Source: Paucibacter sp. KBW04 | GTDB taxonomy: Bacteria; Pseudomonadota; Gammaproteobacteria; Burkholderiales; Burkholderiaceae_C | Length of the DNA: 64,000 nucleotides | Direction: 5' to 3' | Assembly (NCBI RefSeq): GCF_003852425.1 | Contig: NZ_QAJN01000001.1 | Location: forward strand, 62,001-126,000 | In this document: positions 8,211 through 19,323 of the stretch, piece after piece | Layout of the letters: each line of letters begins with the position of its first letter | Numbering within the stretch: the stretch's first letter is position 1 | The notes under the pieces: model-generated | What the model saw: only the letters and a program-made list of their open reading frames with translations | Told to the model about the DNA's origin: nothing | The model's database searches: none | Made by a program: the position numbers and the translations under genes

Positions 8211-10520
8211 TTATTCGCTGCAGCGCGTGCGCTTGCCCTCGGTGACGCAGCTGCGCAGCAGGCGGCGCTCGGGGTCGTACATGCGGGCCGTCCAGTTGCT
8301 CGTGCCCACGACCCGGTCAAACACCACAAAGCCAAATTCCTCGGTCCGCGCTTGTTCGGTGCCGGCCGCCACGATGGGGCTGGTGCTGAAGGCATCGGGC
8401 CGGGCCATGCGGCCATCGGGCAGATGGAAGGACCAGGGGGCAATCTCCCAGGGCCAGCGTTTGTCATCGGCCGCGATGTCGTAGGCCTGGTGCTGGGGCA
8501 CCAGGGCCTGATAGGGCTGGGCGCTGTGCTTGCTTTGGATCAGGCCTTCCAGGGCCTGGCCCGACATGCCGATCAGGTATTGCGTTGGCAGGCCGGTGTT
8601 TTCGGGATGGCTGATCATCTGCCAGCCGTGGATATGACCCGAATGCACCATCTGCAGATTGGCCGGCAGCATGCCATTGCCGGCGGCAAAGCTCTCGACC
8701 CCGGGCTGGATGGCTTTCTGGAATTGCCAGGTGCTGCTGCTCGCCTGTTTGCCGCCGGAGTAGAAGGCGAACAGGGGCTTGTGTGTGACCAGCCAGGAGA
8801 TCTTGGCCGACCGCGTTTCGGGCAGGCGGCTGAGCTGAGTCAGCTGCCGCGCCGTGCGCACATGGTCGCCGTTCGTCCAGCCTTGATTGCGCCCACGGCC
8901 CGGGTTGTCGGCCAGGCCGCCCACATCCATCAGGATCAGCTGCAGATCGCCTAGGCGAACCGTCAGTGGGTCGGTGTAATTGCTGCAGGTCTCGGCCTGG
9001 TAGCTGGGGCTGTAGGCCGGTTCGCTGGCGGGGAATTGGCGATAGTCCAGAAAGCGGTACCAGCCCGCTGCGGCGCGGTCGCATAACTCGTGATTGCCAC
9101 GGGTGATGGCCCAGGGCGCGGCGGCCAGCAAGGGGCCGGCCGGGTGGAAGAAATCGGCGTCCCAGGCTTTCCAGCCATAGGTGATGGTTTCCAGATACTT
9201 GGCGTAGCGCGCCTCATTTGGCAGGTTTTGGCCGGGCTCGGTGCCCTTGGGCGTGCCCTCGCGGTAGTGGATATCGCCGTTGTGGATGATGAGGTCGGGG
9301 TTGAAGCTGGCCGCCGCCCGGGCGATCTTGCGCCAGGGCCAGTCGGACTCATCGCTGCAGTCCTGCAGGGGCGCGCCCGGCTTGCCTTGGCCGATGGCAT
9401 TGGGCCCCTGCACCCGGCAGCCGGTGTCGCCCACCACCACCACCCGCTTGATCAGGGCGGCGGGTTGCAGCAGCTTGAGGCGCAGGCCGTTGATGGCGAC
9501 CACCTGGGCCTCCGTAGGCAAGATCGCCTCGCAGGTCAGCACCTCAAAGTCGGCCGGGATGGGCTTGCTGCGGTCGCCCGTCTGCGAGGCCGCATTGCTG
9601 GCCACGCCGCGCACCGCGGGCGCGCGCACCTGCATGGCCTGTGCTTTGCCGTCCACCAGCAGGGCCGGGCAGCTTGCCCCATAGCTGATGCTGCGGGCCA
9701 CCTGGCGGCCTTGGCCTAGCGTGGGCTCGCTGAGCTGGTAGCGCGCGGCCAGATCGGCCGGCGTGGCCGCCGCCACTTTGCTGCCGGCGGGCGAAATGGG
9801 CAGCTCATTGACCAGGCTGCCGGCCTGGGATCCTGAGCTGACGCCGCTGAAATGCGCGGTGGAGAAGGGTGTTTGGGTGGTGTCGCTGAACTGGGTCCAG
9901 GCGTAGAGGCGGCCGGGCGCTTCCAGCTTTGGCGCGGCGAGGCGCAGAGCGGTTTGTGGGTTCTGCGGCTGGGCCGCCAGGGCCGATTCAAGCAGGGCTT
10001 CTTGGTCCAGCGCAAAGCGCCGAATCAAGTCCTGACTCAGCGCATCGGCACTGCTTGGCTGGCGCAGGTCTTGCACCGTCACGCCTGCCCTGGCAGCCAG
10101 GCTGGCCAGGGCTTGCTCTGGGCTGAGTCCGGCCTCGGCCTGGGCCGCCAGCACGGTGCTGAGCCAGGACAGCTGCAGCGGCTCGCTGCCCGGGCTTGGC
10201 AGGGCGCGCAGCCGCAGGCGGGGCAGGGCCGGGTCGGCCTTGGCCTCGCCGATTTCTGCCAGCCATGCATGGCGGCCATCGCTGGCCAGCGTGAATTGGC
10301 CCTCGGGCCCGGCTTGGGTGAGGGGCTCGCCCGCGTCGCAGCGGGCGTTGTCGTTCAGGTCCAGGCAGACGCGGGCGTTTGGGCCCTCCGCATGATCCAG
10401 CAGGCCGGTGCGGGGCTGTTGGCTAGGCCCAAAGTTGGAGCAAGCACCCAGGGCCAGCAAAACGGCGGCGGAGCAGAGCGGGGCGGCGCCGCGGCGGATC
10501 GAAGAGAAGGTGGCGGGCAT
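8211..10520 (-). CDS. Lipoprotein with calcineurin-like metallophosphoesterase domain
   Basis: A 769-residue envelope lipoprotein. The lipobox LGAC lies near residue 26. A short segment LDLNDNARCD, resembling a calcium-binding or regulatory beta repeat, lies in the first 60 residues. The phosphoesterase core follows: VVVGDTGCR, HNGDIHY, RGNHELC and SGHIHGW carry the expected metal-binding Asp, Asn and His residues. It should hydrolyse phosphate esters outside the cytoplasm; the substrate is unknown. The ATG at MPATFSS is chosen because it places a normal signal peptide. It is convergent with the GGDEF gene and divergent from the TIR gene. Confidence 0.8.
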   Translation of the reverse strand: MPATFSSIRRGAAPLCSAAVLLALGACSNFGPSQQPRTGLLDHAEGPNARVCLDLNDNARCDAGEPLTQAGPEGQFTLASDGRHAWLAEIGEAKADPALPRLRLRALPSPGSEPLQLSWLSTVLAAQAEAGLSPEQALASLAARAGVTVQDLRQPSSADALSQDLIRRFALDQEALLESALAAQPQNPQTALRLAAPKLEAPGRLYAWTQFSDTTQTPFSTAHFSGVSSGSQAGSLVNELPISPAGSKVAAATPADLAARYQLSEPTLGQGRQVARSISYGASCPALLVDGKAQAMQVRAPAVRGVASNAASQTGDRSKPIPADFEVLTCEAILPTEAQVVAINGLRLKLLQPAALIKRVVVVGDTGCRVQGPNAIGQGKPGAPLQDCSDESDWPWRKIARAAASFNPDLIIHNGDIHYREGTPKGTEPGQNLPNEARYAKYLETITYGWKAWDADFFHPAGPLLAAAPWAITRGNHELCDRAAAGWYRFLDYRQFPASEPAYSPSYQAETCSNYTDPLTVRLGDLQLILMDVGGLADNPGRGRNQGWTNGDHVRTARQLTQLSRLPETRSAKISWLVTHKPLFAFYSGGKQASSSTWQFQKAIQPGVESFAAGNGMLPANLQMVHSGHIHGWQMISHPENTGLPTQYLIGMSGQALEGLIQSKHSAQPYQALVPQHQAYDIAADDKRWPWEIAPWSFHLPDGRMARPDAFSTSPIVAAGTEQARTEEFGFVVFDRVVGTSNWTARMYDPERRLLRSCVTEGKRTRCSE

Positions 10521-10660
10521 GGTTTGCGTGTCTTGTTGAGGCGGCAATATCGGGCTATTTTGCGCCTTTGATGTGACGAGGCTTCCTAGGGATAGAGCCT
10601 GCCGCCCATCCGTGTTGTTATGCCTGCCGAGTTCAACACAGCGAACGTACGAACGAGCAA

Positions 10661-11398
10661 GTGAGTGATTCGATGAAAGACTTCTTCATCAGCTACAACC
10701 GTGCCGACAAACGCTGGGCCGAGTGGATCGCTTGGCAGCTGGAGTCGGGCGGGTACTCGGTGTTGATCCAGGCCTGGGACTTCCGCCAGGGCGGCAACTA
10801 TGTGCTGGACATGCAGCGCGCGCTGGAAGACTCGCGCCGCACCCTGCTGGTGCTCTCCCCCGACTTTCTTCGTTCCCAGTTCACCGCGCCTGAATGGGCC
10901 GCCACCTTTGCCAAAGACCCGAGCGGCAGCCAGGGCCTCTTGCTGCCGGTGCGGGTGCGTGAATGCCAGCCCAGCGGTTTGCTGGCCCAGCTGGTCTATG
11001 TCGATCTGGTCGGCCTGAAAAACCAGGCACAGGCGCGCGAGCTCTTGCTGCAGGGTGCGGCTCAGGGTCGGGTCAAGCCGGCCATTGAGCCGGGAATGCC
11101 AGCCCTGGAGCGCGGCTCTAACCTCCGGTCCGAGCCGCCTTGGCCACCCGGCATCAGCTTGTTTGCGCGCCTGGCGGGCACGGTGTTCTGGCGCCTGCTG
11201 CGGGACCTGGCCCTGATGCTGCTGCTGGCCTTGGGCGTGCTGTTTTTGCTGCGTGCTGCCTTGCCGGCCATGGCGGAGGAGCAGGCAGGCAAGCTTTATG
11301 CGATCGCCATGGTTTGCGGGCTGGTCTTGGTGCTGGCGCTGGAAGGCGCTTTGCACGCCCTGGGTGCGTGGCGTCTGCGCCGTGGGGTGCGGGCATGA
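10661..11398 (+). CDS. TIR-domain protein with two C-terminal membrane helices
   Basis: A 245-residue protein. Residues 5-120 form a TIR domain: it opens with DFFISYNRAD, has the LLVLSPDFL strand-loop, and retains Glu78 in the APEW motif, the position of the catalytic glutamate in NAD-cleaving TIRs. Two hydrophobic helices (about 167-205 and 212-237) place the TIR domain in the cytoplasm on the inner membrane. The start is GTG 10661 or ATG 10673; neither has a strong ribosome site. The stop overlaps the next start (ATGA), so the two proteins are probably made together. TIR plus membrane anchor suggests a signalling or abortive-infection role, which is inference. Confidence 0.8.
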   Translation: MSDSMKDFFISYNRADKRWAEWIAWQLESGGYSVLIQAWDFRQGGNYVLDMQRALEDSRRTLLVLSPDFLRSQFTAPEWAATFAKDPSGSQGLLLPVRVRECQPSGLLAQLVYVDLVGLKNQAQARELLLQGAAQGRVKPAIEPGMPALERGSNLRSEPPWPPGISLFARLAGTVFWRLLRDLALMLLLALGVLFLLRAALPAMAEEQAGKLYAIAMVCGLVLVLALEGALHALGAWRLRRGVRA

Positions 11399-13371
11399 AG
11401 GCCCGGTTTGCTTGGCGCCTGTGTCTGCATTTGGGTTTGGTGCTGGGCCTGCTGCTGGGCCTGTTCCCGCCCGGCCAAGCCGCCCCGGTCAAGCCCGGTG
11501 CGAGCCCCTTGGATTTGCAGCTGGATCGCCAGTATCAAAACCTGCAAGCCTTGCAGACCTTGGACAGGCGCGCCGCTGGCGTGCAGGCCCAGGCCCGAGC
11601 GCTGCAAGCCGACAGCCCTGGTCTGAGCGAACAAAGCAGGGCCTTGCTGCAGCGCGCCCAGGACTTGGGTGTTCGATTGGAGGACCTGCAATCATCCTCG
11701 GCCTGTGTACAGGCTCTGCACCAGGCGCAGCAAGCTTTGAACGCCCGACTCAAGGCCTGGCAAGCGGCCTTGCAAAGCAGCCAGCAGGCGGTGCAGGCCG
11801 TGGCCGCCGTAGCACCCGAGGGCTTGGCCGAGGCCGGCCGTCGTTCCGACCAGGCCTTTGACCAAAGGCAGGCGGCCGAGCAGGGCTTGGCTCTGGCCCG
11901 CGAGACTTGGGGCAAGGCATTGGGCCAGTGCCGCAGCCAATTGGCGCAAAGCGACGCTGCCGTGCAGGACCTGCTGGGCAGCAGCCTTAGCCTGCGTGTG
12001 CGGGCCTTGGCCATGGCCGAATCGGCGCAAGCCCTGCAGACCCAGACGCAGGCGCTGCTGCGCGAGGCACGCCAGCCCGGAACACCCACCTTGGCCGGCT
12101 ACAAGCCCGCGCCGCAGCAATGGCCCTCGGGCGATGGCCTGAGTAACTTGCTCCAGGCCTTGAGTGCTCAGCCTCTGCCGGATCGCCTCGGCTTGCTGGA
12201 GGCCGATGGTTTGGGCCTGGCCGAGCTGAATCGGCAGCTGCAGATCCTGGCGCAATTGCAGTCCCTCCTGCCGAGGCTGCAAGATGCCGCGAGCTATGCC
12301 CGCATGGCGGACGCGGGCGAAGGCGCTGAGGCCGAGGCCGCCAGGGCCGAGATGCAGGCCTTGAGCGAGCGCAGTCAGCGGGCCCAGCAAGATCTGGATC
12401 GTGCTTTGCAAGCCATGCAGACGCAGATGCAAAGCCTGCCGAGCCTGCTGCAGCGCTTGTCGCAAACGCAGCAGACCTTGGCCGCGCAGCTGCAGCTGCT
12501 GAACGACAAGCTGCCCGCGGCCCAGCAACAGGCCTTGCAAACGGCCGCCCAGGTGGGCTTGCTTGTGCCTCCTTTGCAGACTGCGCTGCAGCTGGCCAAG
12601 GCCCAGGCGCAGCGGGCCTGGGAGCGCAGCTATCTGGCGCGTTTTGGCCATCCACCCGATGAGGGCGTGGCCGCGGGCGCCGCACCGCCGCCTGCGCCAG
12701 CCCCAGCCCCATCTCCAAAGGGCCCGACGGCCGCCGTACAGCCACCGAGCCTGGCCGGCCATGCCTACCAGTTCTTCAAGGAGCTGGGCAGCGAACGAGG
12801 CGGCTTTGGCGCGTATAGCTATGTGCTTTTGCACAGCGGCTCTGACCTTTTGAAGCCCGATGTGGCCAAACGCTATGCCCATGTGCTGGCGGTCTTGCAG
12901 CGCGAGCGCGAGGCCAGCACGGTGGCGGCCAGCGAGGCCGCCATGGTGAATTTGTTCTGCCTGCCCGGCTCGGTATCGAGCTATGCGGATGATCTCGGCA
13001 AGCAGATTTTGTTCCGCGCCCAATCGGGCTTGCTGACCCGGCCGGAGATGAAAAAGCGCCTGGGGCCCAAGGGCGGCAGTGGGCCGTTTCTGATCACCTT
13101 GCCTGTGCGCTTGTCCGAGGCGCGCTCCAGCACGCCCTTGCTGTTTGTCGATCTAAGCCTTTACCCCGAGGACACGGTGGCCGATCTGTTGAGCAGCTAT
13201 ATGAGCGATCTGCTGCGCGACTTCCCGCGCGAGCAGCTGCGTTGGAAGCCGCCTGTCTTGCAGCAAGTGGCCTTGACCTTGATAGGCCTGAGCAGCGATT
13301 TCAGCGGCTTGGTCATGAGCGTACTGCCCACGGCCAGTGCCGCTGAATCGATCCCCAAGCCTAAGCCCTGA
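11395..13371 (+). CDS. Secreted coiled-coil protein coupled to the TIR gene
   Basis: A 658-residue protein I do not recognise. It has a signal peptide (about 1-29, ending QAA). Residues ~35-425 are Gln/Ala/Leu-rich and look like long coiled coils. A proline-rich linker follows near 425-450, then a compact ~190-residue C-terminal domain beginning GHAYQFFKELGSERGGFGAYSYV that looks globular. The ATG overlaps the stop of the TIR gene by four bases. Its periplasmic location opposite a membrane TIR protein suggests it could sense or transmit an envelope signal; this is inference. Confidence 0.75.
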   Translation: MKARFAWRLCLHLGLVLGLLLGLFPPGQAAPVKPGASPLDLQLDRQYQNLQALQTLDRRAAGVQAQARALQADSPGLSEQSRALLQRAQDLGVRLEDLQSSSACVQALHQAQQALNARLKAWQAALQSSQQAVQAVAAVAPEGLAEAGRRSDQAFDQRQAAEQGLALARETWGKALGQCRSQLAQSDAAVQDLLGSSLSLRVRALAMAESAQALQTQTQALLREARQPGTPTLAGYKPAPQQWPSGDGLSNLLQALSAQPLPDRLGLLEADGLGLAELNRQLQILAQLQSLLPRLQDAASYARMADAGEGAEAEAARAEMQALSERSQRAQQDLDRALQAMQTQMQSLPSLLQRLSQTQQTLAAQLQLLNDKLPAAQQQALQTAAQVGLLVPPLQTALQLAKAQAQRAWERSYLARFGHPPDEGVAAGAAPPPAPAPAPSPKGPTAAVQPPSLAGHAYQFFKELGSERGGFGAYSYVLLHSGSDLLKPDVAKRYAHVLAVLQREREASTVAASEAAMVNLFCLPGSVSSYADDLGKQILFRAQSGLLTRPEMKKRLGPKGGSGPFLITLPVRLSEARSSTPLLFVDLSLYPEDTVADLLSSYMSDLLRDFPREQLRWKPPVLQQVALTLIGLSSDFSGLVMSVLPTASAAESIPKPKP

Positions 13372-13406
13372 CCCAAGCATTGAGCCTGGCTCAGGCGCTC
13401 TGGCGT

Positions 13407-16400
13407 TCAGGCCGCAAAGGGCTTGCTGCCCAGCGCGGCCAAGCCGTCCAGGATGCGCTGGGCGGCGCCGTGCTCGGCCCTTTGCTGGGCGGCCGTGCCC
13501 AGCTTGCAGCTGAGGTAGGGCTGCAGGGTGAAGCGGGCCTGCTTGGCCACAGAGTCCCACATGGTGGCGGCCGGCACTCTTTGCTTGAGTTGGGCAAAGC
13601 TGGCCAGGCAGGCGTCGGCCACGCCGGCCAAGCGGCCTTGCGACAAGGCCTCCAGCAAATTCAGCTCGGTCTGGCCGACCACGCTCCAGAAGTCCGGTTC
13701 GCGCTGATTGGCCTGGCTCAAGGCCTCGCGAGCGTCTTGGATGCGCTGCGGCGCGATCAAGCCTTGCAGGCTTTGCAGCTTGGGGTCTTGGAAGGCCAGA
13801 TGCAGGCTCAGGGCGATCGCATTCATAGCCGGGTAGTAGCGCTTGGGATCGCCTTGGGCCACGCAGATGCGCTCGGCCTCCAGGTAATGTTGCAGCGATC
13901 GTTGCAAGTCCTCTCGTCCTTGTCCGGCCGCCTTCGTCATGGCTTGCAGCTTCCAGGCCGAGCCCAGCAGATTGTGGCGTTCCGCCGTGGGCTGCATGGC
14001 GAGTATGCGTTCCAGCAAGGCCGTGCCTTCCTCGAGCGCGGCCTGGTCCTGGGTCTTCTCGCCCTGGCGTACCAGCAGATTGCCCAGTTGCTCGGCCGCC
14101 TTCAGCGAGGCGCTGGCGTCCTCGGCATTGACGGCGATGCGATACCAGGTGATGGCCGTGGCCCGTTCGCCCAAGGCCGTGTAGGCCACGGCAAAGGCCT
14201 CGGCCACCGCACCCATGCCGCCCCACAGGGCTTTGAACTGGGCGTCCAGATAGCGCAGCTTGTCCAACTGGGTGCTGCTCGCCTTGCTCTTGCTGTACTG
14301 GGCTTCGACGGCGATCTTCTCCAGCGCCAAGGTGAGTGACACGGGAGAGGCGATGCCGGCGAATTCTTCGCCCAGATTGACGGTCGGCCTTTGCGCGTCG
14401 CCGCCCTCGCGTTGCCAGCGCCATTCGGGGTCGCCATAGCATTGGTAGGCGGCCCAGGTATTGCCCTGAGGGTTGGCATGCCAGGCAGCTTCGCGGGCCT
14501 GCCCCACGGCCTCGATGAAGCGGGCCCCGCTCAGCAAGGCGGCGTAGAAACGGGTGGCGAACTGCTCGGCGGCCTCGTCCTCTACCGCCCAGCCGGCAGC
14601 CACCACGCAGCGCACGCCCACGCGGATCAGCTCCTCGGCGATATTGGCGGCGAAGCTGGCGCGATCGTAGGTGGGGGTGCTGCCGCCCTGGCTGCTCAGC
14701 ACGGAGGCGGCCTCGCGCCCGGCCAGATGGCAGCAGTTGAGGAAGACCAGCTCGGGCACGACACGCATGGCGCGCACCTCGTCGGCGCCGAGGTAGGTGT
14801 CGGTGCCCGAGAGCACGACCCCGCCCTTGGCGCTCGGCGCCCCATGGCCGGCGATATGGACAGCACGGTAATTGCGCTCGAACAAGGCGTTGATGATGGA
14901 CTGTGCATCGTTTTGCTCGACCAGCTGGCGCACCTTGTCCTCGCCATTGCCATCCCTGTCGCCCAAGGCCATGCCGAGCTGAGAGGCGACGGCCAGGGCC
15001 TCGCGGCGGGCGCCGTCCAGGCGGGGGTACTTTGTGGGGTCGCACAGCGGCTCACCGATCACCAGCACATGGTCGTCGGGGCTGGCGTCGCGCACCTGGC
15101 TGCGGAAGTCCTTGAGTTGCAGCTTGCGGATCAGCTTGCTGCGTATGGCCCAGGGGCGTTGGTCGTCCACGCCGGGGTCGGGGTTGGTGTTGAGCAGCTC
15201 CCAGGGGATGCCGGCCGTGGCGGCTTCCAGCTCAATCACCATCTCGCTGGTGCCACCCAAAAAGGGCTCCATCTCCACCGGCACCAACAGATTGAACAGG
15301 GTGCGGCCAATCATGGGGTCGGTGTTGGCGACGTTAGAGGCCTTTTCGACCAGCTCGCGCAGCAAGCTGCCTTGGGCATGCTGGGCGCGGATCTCGGTGC
15401 GAGCGCGCTTGGTGTCCAGGGTGTAGTTGATGACGGGGTGAGCCGGGTCCTGGCCGGGCACGGACAGGGCGCTGATGAAGTCATAGCTGGCGCCGCGATA
15501 GCTGGACTCCAGCATGCGCCGCATGGCGCCGGGCCCGCTCTCCACCTTGCCTTGCAGGCGCAGGCGCTCGGGCGCGGCCAGTTCCTGCAACTGCAGGGCG
15601 CGCCAGGCATCACCGGCGCGGTCCAGGAACAACTCGACCAAGGTGAGCTGGCGCAGCTGGTGCCAGCCACAGGCCTGCAGCTTTTGCTTGGCTTCCAAAG
15701 CGCCCTGGGCGATGGCGCGGGCCGCGCTGCCCGCGGTGATGCCGCTGCCGCCGCTGCCGATCAGGGTGGCGGCCATCTCAAAGTCCTGCGGCTTGCCTTC
15801 GCCACCCTGGCCGCGCTGCTCCGACAGGCGCTGGGCATAGGCCAGCACGGCCTGTCGGACGGTGAAGGACAAATCGCTGGCGCGCAGCTTGCCTTCCTCG
15901 CCCAGGCCCACCACGATGACGGCTTGCGGACGGGCCATCTCGAAGGGGTTGTCGGGGTTGCTTCGCTCATTGCCGAAGATCTGGTGCGAGCCCGGTGCAT
16001 CCGGGTAGAGGCCGGCGGCCAGGGCCCGGCTCATGCCTTGTTGAACCAGGCCATCGATGACGCCCTCGGCACCGGTCAGGCTCAAAGCACGGTAATGCCC
16101 CACCAGCAAAGGCTGTTGCACAAAGCGCAGATCGGCGTTCAGCACCCGCACTTGCAGAGCCTGAGCGGTGTTGGCGCGCAGCTTGCCTTGGCCCCGCTTG
16201 GCGGCACCGGCGCTGGCCAGCACATCGGAGGCCCGGCTCGGTGGCAGCGAGGACAGCAGGCCGCGCGAGGGCCGGCTGCGCTGCAATGCACGGCTGGCGG
16301 ACGGGCCGGCTTTGCCCAGGGAGGCGGCGCCTCGGCTGTTCAGCTCCAGGCGGTCCAGCAAGCGGGTGTCGCCGCTGCTGAGCAGCTCGATATAGGCGGC

Positions 16401-19154
16401 AAAGGCCTCGGCCACATCGGGCAGCTTGCCGTGTTCAGCGTCCAGCTTCCAGGTGCGCAGGCCCAGTTGGGTGCTGCTGGCCTGGGTGACGCGGCCATCG
16501 CCATCGTCGGGCGTGTTGAGGTACTCCAGGCCGCTGAGCGGGTCCATCTGGATGCCGGCCGGGGTGAAGTCGGCATGTCCCACCACCAGCAGCATCTTTT
16601 GCTTGTCGGTGCCCAGCGTTGCCAACTGTGCATCGAGACGGCGCCGCAGCCGCACCGCCTGGTCGAGCACGGCTTGCGGCGGTGCGCCCCATTCGTAGAT
16701 GGTGATTTGCGAGTCCAGCGTGTGCCAGTAGCTGTTTTGCCGCAAGGTGTTGATGTCTTGATCGGCCAGCTTCTGCCAGGTCTCGGCCTTGTCCAGGCCC
16801 TGGGCCGGGTCCAGCAGATCGGCCTGCAGCTGGATGAAGCCGGGCATGCCCGCCATCATCTTGCGTGCACCGCCGTTATTGAATAGCGAGCCAAAAGCCA
16901 CCAGGGCATTGCCAAAAGTGTCGTCGCCTGAGAGGGTTTGCATCGGCGCCCAGGAGCCGCCATTGGGCGTGCCCAGCATCAGCACGCGGGCCTCCGCATG
17001 GGCCATCAGGCGGCGCCAGGTCTCGGGGGCTTCCAGCTGCACCGTGCGGGCCACCAGACCGCCCATGGAGTGGGCAATGATGCGCACCGGCTGGCCGCTG
17101 GCGCGGCGGGCGGCGATGGCCTTGTCCAATTCCACAGCCAGGCGACGAGCCTCGTCCTCGATGGGCCGGCGCCAATCGTAGGCAAAGGGGATGACCTCGT
17201 GGCTGTCGGCCAGGCGTTCGATCAAATCGTCGTAGCTGCTGCCAATGGGGCCGTCGGGTTGAACGCGGTCGGCGGTGGCCGGGTCCCAGGCCAGCTTCAT
17301 CAAACCGTTGACGAAACCAAAGCCCAGCCAAATTCGTTTGCCATCCAGCTTGAGGTTGGAACCCAGGATGCCTGGCAGCACAAACACGGCGGGTCGCTTG
17401 GCCGCCTGTTGCGCCGCTTGCGCCAGCTCTTCGGCGCTGTGGGCGGCTGGCTTGTCGTCATTGCCCCAGAACAGGCCGCGCGAGCGCGCCACGGCGCGAG
17501 CGCTGCGGGTGCCGCTGGCGCTTTCGCCGGCCCAGGACAGGGGGCCGATGGCGGCAAAGCCCGCCGGTTCGCTGCTCAGCAGGGCGCCGGTAATGGCATC
17601 CACCGTGCTGGCGTTGCTGAAGTAGTTGAAGTGGGTGACCTTGCCGCCACGGTCCAGCATGAACTGGGCGCTGGGTGAGGCGCTCGCCCTCAGCTCGCCC
17701 TGGCGCGGCGCGCCGCCGTACATGGAGCGGGTCTGCACGACCAAATCGTTATCGCCCCAGTAGAAAGCGTCGGCCAGCAAGGTCTTGACCCAGGAGCCAA
17801 TCGAGTCGCCTTCCAGATCCCCCGCCACCACCCGCAGCTCGCCGGGCAGGGCGATCTCGGCTCGGTTGAGCCAGGCCACCACGGCGCTCTCGGGCATCAT
17901 GGCCTCGATGCCGGGCAGCTCGGCCGGGTCGGCGCGGCGTCTTGCCACCTCGTGCAGAAAATCCACCAGGGCCGGTGCCACCGGCACTTGGGCCAGCTGC
18001 AAGCCCCATTGCAGCACCGACAGATAAGCGTCCAGCCGGCCCGAGGCCAGGGTGGTGCCGCGTGCCGGGCAGGCCACTCTCACCACCCGCTCCAGCTTGA
18101 TGCCCTTGGCCTGGGCTTGCTGCACCAGGGCCGTCAGGTCTTTGCGATGCTGCGCATATTTCTCGTCGGCAAACAGTGCCAGCTCGGCCAAGGTGAGCTT
18201 GCCGCCCCCGCAGGCGCGGGCCAGGATTTCGGCCACCAGGCCCCCGCGCGAATGCGTCACCAGATGCAGGCGGGCGCCGGCCGGCAGGGCCTCAACCAGC
18301 GTCAGTGCATTGGCGATGGGGCTCAAGCCCATGGTCGGGTGGTCCAGGGCGTAGACCTTGTCGCCATAGCTGCTGAACAGATCGCGCACCTTGTCTGGGT
18401 GCTGCAGCCAGAGCTTGCCAAAAGTGCTGACGGTGTCGACGAAAGTGCCATGCACCAGCACCAGCAGGGGCTGGCCATCGGCCGCCGGCGGCACCTGGGC
18501 CAGCTTGGCACCGCTGCCTTTGAGTGTGGCGGGCAGGGCTTGGGCGAAAGGTTTGAGGTCGTAGACGCCTGCATCCACCTGGCCGTCGACCTTCTTCGTT
18601 ATGGCTGCGGTGACCAGGGTGACGGCCTCGTCCTTGAAGAGATCGGTGACCACATCAAAGGCCTGCAAAACCACATCGCCCAGCCAGCCTCGCGTGGCGC
18701 CGCGGGTGGCGGTGGCTTCCAGACCGGCCCAGGCCAGATTGCCGCTAACGGCGACTTCATCCGCACCCAGTGCCACGGTGGCGCCGCGCGTTCCGGTGCT
18801 GCCCTGGCCAGCTGTTTGAGCCCGCATCAGGTCACGGGCGTCCTCGGGGTGCAAGACCAGGGTGGGGCCGCCCGCAATCGTCAGCACGACGACGTCCTCG
18901 CCTGGCTTGGCGCTGACGCGCACCAGGCTGCCCGCATCGGCAGCATCCCGCGCCGTGCCGGTGCTTAGGCGGACCGAGGCCTTGATGCGGCCCGTCGAGG
19001 GCGCCACGTCCGGACCCGCAAGCCCTCCGCGGGTGGCCGCACTCGCGCCAGTCTGCAATTGGCCAGGGATGAGGAAGGTGATTTCCTGGCCCGCACCATT
19101 GCCAGAGCCACGGTTTGGTTTGCTGCTGTTGGTCTTGCTAACGCGGCTGGCCAT
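13407..19154 (-). CDS. Giant CHAT-protease protein with two serine-hydrolase domains
   Basis: A 1,915-residue cytoplasmic protein with no signal peptide. In order: an alpha/beta hydrolase with VHGT and nucleophile HSRGG (near residue 301); a second hydrolase resembling lecithin:cholesterol acyltransferases ([14 protein letters not shown] near 695, candidate His in AEHGK); a segment near 1000-1320 with [10 protein letters not shown], faintly like the N-terminal domain of M17 peptidases; a CHAT caspase-like domain with AGHG (about 1435) and NCC (about 1474) as the His-Cys pair; and a helical, probably TPR-like C-terminus from about 1608. The start is ATG 19154, with AGGAG eight bases upstream. 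It faces the TIR/coiled-coil pair with a 35-base gap. Confidence 0.85.
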
Positions 19155-19323
19155 GGGAGGCACTCCTGTCGGATGGATGGGTGAGTATTCGGGCGAGGCC
19201 GGCGGGCCTGATCCTGAGCGCCGCGCCGACTTGGGTACATCATCAGCGCTGCTGCAGGCGAAGTGGGGATGCTAGCGCCTGCAAACAACAAAGGGCAATC
19301 GCCAAGGCCCAAGCATCATGCGA

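Follow-up and report, generated by a model that had tools for sequence, protein, structure and literature searches.

An orthocaspase encoded elsewhere, rather than the adjacent TIR and coiled-coil genes, as the best-supported partner of a giant CHAT-hydrolase protein in Paucibacter sp. KBW04

Do three large and unusual genes that lie end to end in a bacterial genome also work together? The question is raised by a locus of Paucibacter sp. KBW04, part of a stretch of 64,000 nucleotides (contig NZ_QAJN01000001.1, positions 62,001 to 126,000 of the forward strand) that is hereafter called the window and whose first letter is position 1. A gene for a membrane-anchored TIR protein (10661..11398, +) is joined by an ATGA overlap to a gene for an exported coiled-coil protein (11395..13371, +), and both are convergent with the gene for a protein of 1,915 residues (13407..19154, -; alternative GTG start at 19163), the giant, in which a caspase-like CHAT domain is combined with two hydrolase domains. 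A first-pass annotation, made from the letters alone, had placed the three genes correctly, as the open reading frames (ORFs), their strands and the overlap confirm, and had joined them into one envelope-linked conflict system. The comparison of genomes points to another core, namely the giant together with an orthocaspase encoded outside the window, which may form an effector gated by a signal derived from nicotinamide adenine dinucleotide (NAD) and to which TIR enzymes would have been attached repeatedly. This reading is put forward tentatively, since we give it somewhat less than an even chance.

A first answer comes from the distribution of the genes. Among 18 genomes of the genus, the giant is present in 14, the coil protein in two and the TIR protein of the window type in one. 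The first-pass annotation had proposed a search for co-occurrence and had named routine separation of the three genes as the outcome that would speak against a joint system; routine separation is what the genomes contain, and the claim of a single three-gene system was not supported. The 14 giants comprise four similar to that of the window (71-100% identity) and ten relatives at 33-35%, those of genomes G158 and G163 being seen in pieces, and G160 yielded no more than a weak TIR-protein match that covers residues 108-197 only (E 5e-4). In the wider family, the giant was found in 24 of 150 genomes at E <1e-60, with at most three candidates per genome scored and with 17 of the 41 matching genomes, whose matches were weaker and partial, counted as giant-less; a scan that scored up to eight candidates per genome found the coil protein in three of the 150, the match in one being weak.

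The gene that accompanies the giant most steadily encodes an orthocaspase, a protein of about 300 residues with a Peptidase_C14 domain. A close orthologue (E <1e-140) occurs in exactly the 14 genus genomes that carry the giant and in none of the four that do not (Fisher p 3e-4), three of the latter having a weaker caspase match only (E 6e-10 to 7e-12). The two genes are adjacent in ten of these 14 genomes and unlinked in four, that of the window included; in all four unlinked cases the orthocaspase stands at the site where other genomes of the genus carry orthocaspase and giant together, and the giant lies elsewhere. The genes near this chromosomal site are, as we take them by eye and recall, xdhC-like and PuuD-like. 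In the family as a whole, the orthocaspase is present in 14 of the 24 giant-bearing genomes and in two of the 126 others (p 1e-11). For a still broader view 78 giants were compared, left from 81 after removal of near-identical copies, 60 of them flanked on either side by 3 kb or more and all with neighbouring genes called by a simple codon-usage script instead of a standard gene finder; 34 of them have a co-directional orthocaspase no further away than about 1.1 kb, upstream in 33. The catalytic motifs are well preserved, with GHG in all 36 orthocaspase copies checked (a few of which are near-identical) and the cysteine pattern in 30, the other six reading DCCHSG.

In the genome of the window, the orthocaspase is encoded on another contig (G000:C16:72805-73704, within locus L174:9237-10208), scores 77.6 bits with Peptidase_C14 and has both GHG and DSCHSG; against the EACC1 caspase model NF047832 it reaches 30.1 bits, below the cut-off of 140. 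Its gene stops about ten bases short of the contig end, leaving only the upstream side visible. In the tree of giants, that of the window joins the Rhodoferax-type giants and stands apart from the rest of its genus, fully supported by a quick method; in the tree of orthocaspases, the window orthocaspase joins those of its genus. The two trees differ, and the orthocaspase keeps its old site; the simplest reading of the sequences is that the lineage of the window retained its orthocaspase and had its giant replaced. On these grounds, the orthocaspase appears as the best-supported and steady partner of the giant. Two side observations concern decay. A further giant within one and the same genome (G133:C1:5450271-5451803) is in pieces of scrambled order with a stop codon, and looks like a decayed copy. 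An orthocaspase orthologue with ordinary-looking neighbours (G039:C33:117225-118112, locus L205) occurs in a genome in which no giant was detected, and is perhaps the remnant of a lost pair.

The giant itself contains the parts of a putative effector as well as those of a candidate sensor. Its Pfam matches are DUF7379 (7.4e-31), LCAT (6.1e-7; 29.4 bits, cut-off 21), CHAT (1.3e-29; 104 bits) and TPR-S (9.5e-11; 42.6 bits, cut-off 27.6), which bears out the CHAT and two hydrolase domains already noticed at first reading, and by hydropathy it has neither a hydrophobic segment nor a signal-peptide-like start. The conservation of residues was taken from an alignment of 70 full-length giants, i.e., those of more than 1,500 residues. 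In the first hydrolase domain (the DUF7379 region, 17619..18479, -; about residues 226-512, limits by eye), with S302, D446 or D470, and H508, the serine is kept in 68 and the histidine in all 70 giants. In the second (16350..17393, -; about residues 588-935, limits by eye), S696 is kept in 68, and D886, H908 and the LCAT-type motif DWR at 660-662 are each kept in all 70; by its score above the cut-off, its triad and its DWR this domain is LCAT/phospholipase-like in sequence, with a predicted lipid substrate. The CHAT domain (14400..15491, -; about residues 1222-1585, Pfam 1283-1575) has its dyad, H1437 and C1475, in every one of the 70.

Two further domains came from structure prediction and from profiles. 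An AlphaFold2 (AF2) model of residues 985-1915, built on an alignment of 61 sequences, has a predicted local distance difference test (pLDDT) score of 89.4 and was compared with known structures by Foldseek and VIA-align. Its first part (15564..16169, -; about residues 996-1197) is a predicted macro-type domain, a fold shared with the N-terminal part of M17 aminopeptidases, with Z of 16-17.5 (leucine aminopeptidase N-terminal part 17.5, macroH2A 16.9) and the invariant G1083-x-G1085 in 70 of 70 giants. The sequences agree with this reading, as there is a profile match to an aminopeptidase N-terminus (E 5.5e-4) and Peptidase_M17_N is found in eight of 50 relatives, taken from the 61-row alignment A1 and scanned with Pfam at E 0.01; 36 of the 50 have TPR-S. 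According to an excerpt of PMC9503650, a GxG motif belongs to the cleft in which macro domains bind ADP-ribose. The caspase-like fold at about 1222-1585 resembles separase (Z 20-21.5), SAVED-CHAT (19.1) and the TPR-CHAT of Craspase (16.6-19.0), and the TPR superhelix that follows it (13410..14348, -; about residues 1603-1915, Pfam TPR-S 1667-1782) resembles ASK1 (Z 21.4). The first-pass annotation had stated that no NTPase or known sensor was present. The former part agrees with the Pfam scan, in which none of the TIR, coil and giant proteins matched an NTPase family at E 0.1; the latter does not, because a TPR-S match and a macro-type fold with a conserved GxG give the giant candidate sensors, whose ligand binding is a prediction from the model.

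A possible source of the signal is suggested by the neighbours of other giants. Of the 78 giants, 13 have a TIR gene no more than 3 kb away, that of the window included; in the other 12 cases this gene is always co-directional with the giant, overlapping it by 4 bases in five loci (L038, L047, L051, L053 and L100). The TIR genes are of several kinds: plain TIR, TIR-TPR, TIR with a weak receiver-like match, TIR-SLOG and TIR with a long TPR array. Counted by genome, such a neighbour was seen in 13 of 76 and expected by chance in 0.36, a figure that assumes random scatter of TIR genes and ignores shared descent; the background comprised 253 TIR matches in 76 distinct giant-bearing genomes (77 less one duplicate), called with PF13676 at E 0.001, and the neighbours were called with our own profile at E 1e-4. 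Since four of the 13 cases are of Hydrogenophaga type and two are TIR-TPR genes that are alike, shared descent reduces them to about nine separate events by our own estimate. The glutamate is kept, by aligned column, in 14 of 17 TIR domains near giants and shifted by one column in two more, one of the domains being 3.9 kb off. The link between TIR and CHAT that had been drawn from adjacency gains partial support from 12 other giants, far above chance, and none from the window's own locus.

In four of these loci (L046, L047, L053 and L100, three of them named Hydrogenophaga), the gene order is orthocaspase, N-acetylmuramoyl-alanine amidase, giant and TIR, and in three of the four it ends with an astacin-like protease; this order looks operon-like and the genes like an autolysis-type set. 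Two further Hydrogenophaga loci differ, L062 having no TIR and L048 having the giant with none of the orthocaspase, amidase, TIR and astacin-like neighbours. In an excerpt of PMC3501461, fusions of metacaspase and amidase are reported with a possible link to lysis, and an excerpt of PMC7159879 describes one class of conflict systems in which caspase domains are always accompanied by neighbouring alpha/beta-hydrolase genes, joint action being assumed. Taken together, by analogy, the two would be independent hints of caspases acting together with envelope hydrolases.

From the domains, catalytic residues, co-occurrence, synteny and partner retention read in these sequences we infer a ligand, an order of events, a lipid target and a role in defence. 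Most likely, the giant would act in the cytosol, as the effector in a system of conflict or cell death. Its macro and TPR-S domains would recognise an NAD- or ADP-ribose-type signal, and this recognition would release the CHAT protease; proteolysis by CHAT, by the orthocaspase or by both in relay could then switch on the tethered pair of lipase-like hydrolases, whose target would be membrane lipids. TIR (or SIR2) enzymes would be local, attachable signal makers or co-effectors, and the membrane TIR of the window with its exported partner might be one such local attachment, able to couple an event at the envelope to the giant. If true, a single polypeptide would unite three strands of work on bacterial cell death, namely ADP-ribose signalling, caspase-like proteases and membrane lipases. 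The matching presence of orthocaspase and giant within the genus, even where they are unlinked, would moreover provide a concrete candidate partner for the poorly understood bacterial caspases.

Several observations weigh against this picture. No TIR_2 match was found in 15 of 77 giant-bearing genomes and no TIR gene was seen within 3 kb of 65 of the 78 giants (18 of the 78 having shorter flanks), so that TIR is not required by the giant; moreover, the TIR gene of the window lies on the strand opposite the giant, unlike the 12 other cases. The orthocaspase is absent from ten of the 24 giant-bearing family genomes, from which it appears to depend on the giant more than the reverse, two family genomes have it without a giant, and the node uniting the window orthocaspase with its genus has moderate support (95/73). 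As for the sensor, macro and TPR folds are no proof of an ADP-ribose ligand, since leucine aminopeptidases share the N-terminal fold, and the argument would depend on the conservation of GxG. Finally, the window shows no sign of a defence island: the ten neighbours scanned are ordinary (a solute-binding protein, a GGDEF protein, YnfA, HU, a metal ATPase, a MerR regulator and a phosphoesterase by Pfam) or, in three cases, without a family, and PADLOC matched one of the ten, the MerR regulator, to mad1.

The same counts can be read without any NAD-derived signal. Giant and orthocaspase would then be a system of two proteases, and the TIR genes separate conflict genes that settled nearby, as happens in gene-rich islands. 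Such a view would account for the orthocaspase being beside giants more often than TIR (34 against 13 of 78), for its co-occurrence with giants even when unlinked and for the giant genomes that have no TIR_2 match. It explains less well why TIR genes recur in the direction of the giant, five with a 4-base overlap, an arrangement for which operons are likelier than loose clustering, and why the giant has TPR-S and macro domains; we regard it as possible, if on the whole doubtful. Going back to the signal-gated core of giant and orthocaspase, a bolder version of it can be formulated, which we think rather unlikely to be right in all its parts: a modular death system with swappable TIR or SIR2 signal makers, a macro and TPR-S sensor, CHAT with orthocaspase and two phospholipases that are released, whose signal maker would, in the lineage of the window, have become connected with the envelope by means of a membrane TIR together with an exported sensor protein. 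To our knowledge, a system of that design has not been described as a unit.

It may also be asked whether the giant has any conflict role at all. A house-keeping or stress-response lipid hydrolase processed by its own CHAT domain would suit the ordinary surroundings in the window and the single chromosomal site held by the orthocaspase in the genus; it is improbable in view of the patchy presence of the giant in the family (24 of 150 genomes), of two divergent giants within one genus, of plasmid copies, one adjoining restriction-modification genes, and of neighbours of the TIR, SIR2 and NACHT types. In one locus (L108:3540-16850), a giant is flanked by an NNH1-NACHT protein and a SIR2-CHAT protein. 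On plasmid pRL31b3 of Rhizobium leguminosarum (L200), a CHAT relative of 936 residues stands between two genes annotated as TIR, one of which encodes a TIR-STAND-WD40 protein (nSTAND1, WD40 repeats), and in Azotobacter chroococcum (L197) a giant on a mobilizable plasmid adjoins restriction-modification and Fic genes. In the titles and abstract beginnings listed by searches of open-licence literature the giant is not described, and DUF7379 appears in none of the matches listed.

The remaining two genes of the window, the TIR-coil pair, are the least understood part of the locus. The TIR gene starts with GTG at 10661 or ATG at 10673 and ends at 11398, and its product matches TIR_2 (1.3e-33) over a domain of residues 8-128; the catalytic-type glutamate (Glu78, numbered from the GTG start) is kept, and two hydrophobic segments C-terminal of the domain (175-206 and 208-237, by hydropathy) agree with the membrane anchor proposed in the first-pass annotation. 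There are five TIR_2 matches in this genome (G000:C1, C2, C4, C7 and C31), of which only that of the window is near a giant. The coil protein, for which no Pfam family lies above cut-off, was likewise rightly called exported, having a signal-peptide-like hydrophobic segment at 5-27 and a borderline hydrophobic one at 625-643. Its PADLOC match of note, JetC2 (2.5e-6), falls within the coil part and is probably a likeness of coils. Its C-terminal domain (12745..13368, +) shares 88% identity with that of the sister species, where the entire protein shares 69%, and 33% with a lipoprotein-like protein of G800, the one relative besides the window's own among 369 genomes of the class. This relative is ATGA-coupled to a small ORF that has two hydrophobic stretches but lacks a TIR. 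A membrane protein and an exported domain protein may therefore have been paired before the TIR came in, as far as one genome can tell. A kinship of the small ORF with the membrane part of the window TIR was rejected (score 27, shuffled mean 27.8), as was a foreign composition of the TIR and coil genes (G+C of both 0.661, giant 0.675). An AF2 model of the domain from three sequences was unusable (pLDDT 37.5), its profile had a best E of 0.96 in the PDB and found no Pfam family above cut-off, and plasmids gave no match to the coil protein at 1e-5 nor to the G800 relative at 0.01.

How this pair came to lie beside the giant can be followed in relatives. In Roseateles oligotrophus (L043), the nearest relative with giant (89%) and coil protein (69%), the TIR is absent and 273 bases separate the coil gene from a phosphoesterase gene, and in two loci of the genus (L089 and L090) the phosphoesterase directly follows the giant. 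Its counterpart in the window, a lipoprotein-like metallophosphoesterase (8211..10520, -), is an old syntenic neighbour of the giant and matters here as context only. By this synteny, coil and TIR appear as later arrivals between the giant and phosphoesterase genes; in the simplest order of events, giant and phosphoesterase would come first, the coil would be inserted next, and the TIR would be gained here or lost in the sister species, two courses that the comparison fits alike. A TIR remnant in the sister species was considered and dropped, as the common intergenic sequence stops near window position 10624, with short scattered matches beyond. At the position of the window's TIR, the Roseateles locus has a short inverted repeat (L043:17589-17680) made of the motif CACAGAGACACAGAG and its rough complement; among the loci fetched, CACAGAGACACAGAG occurs in L043 and L070 only, both apparently the same species and locus.

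The trio as a single envelope-linked system, with the coil as sensor, the TIR as source of the signal and the giant as executor, is quite improbable: adjacency, the ATGA coupling, the recurrence of TIR genes next to other giants and the coupled membrane-type ORF of G800 speak for it, but the three genes are unequally kept in genus and family, the sister species has the coil beside the giant without a TIR, and TIR and giant lie on opposite strands. Adjacency in a single genome can thus point to the wrong partner.

With regard to known systems, the giant, with its putative orthocaspase partner, shares features with several of them. The modelled CHAT domain has the caspase-like fold of Csx29, the TPR-CHAT of Craspase, and of the SAVED-CHAT of CBASS (Z 16.6-19.1 for the two); in Csx29 the TPR precedes CHAT, whereas in the giant it is C-terminal of it. 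PADLOC returned no match naming the giant; it gave a weak SAVED_CHAT hit of 23.3 bits, confined to the CHAT part, and for one plasmid relative a weak hit to BovA. The Pfam scan at E 0.1 found no SAVED family in the giant. The TPR-S domain, which Burroughs and Aravind reportedly predicted in 2020 to recognise NAD-derived signals, lies above the Pfam cut-off in the giant, a likeness in which the NAD-derived ligand is a prediction. With the VMAP ternary systems, as far as an excerpt of PMC7159879 describes them, the giant shares the pairing of caspase domains with an alpha/beta-hydrolase, which there is encoded by a neighbouring gene and here belongs to the CHAT polypeptide itself; the ten window neighbours scanned with Pfam include neither a MoxR nor a vWA family. 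In type II Thoeris, the macro fold of the TM-macro protein ThsA reads an ADP-ribose derivative (as described in part of PMC12847820); the giant has a macro fold with a predicted ligand of the ADP-ribose type, and differs in that its effector part consists of CHAT and lipases, ThsA being a membrane protein. In type IV Thoeris (Rousset et al., 2025, as described in part of PMC12847820), a messenger derived from NAD and made by a TIR protein activates a caspase-like protease, both encoded in one operon. The curated Thoeris models give the window TIR 21.5 of 220 bits for ThcB4 and weak ThsB matches of 15.9 and 10.6 bits, with no type IV model among the matches, a model which the library may lack. 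Beside 12 other giants a TIR gene less than 3 kb away runs in the same direction; the TIR and CHAT genes of the window are convergent, on opposite strands and thus not in one operon, and the giant adds two hydrolases, a macro domain, TPR-S and an orthocaspase partner. The window is, for this reason, no member of type IV Thoeris, whose protease responds to N7-cADPR produced by its TIR, and would at most work like it, and in combining TIR with a caspase-like protease that system is the nearest worked-out precedent.

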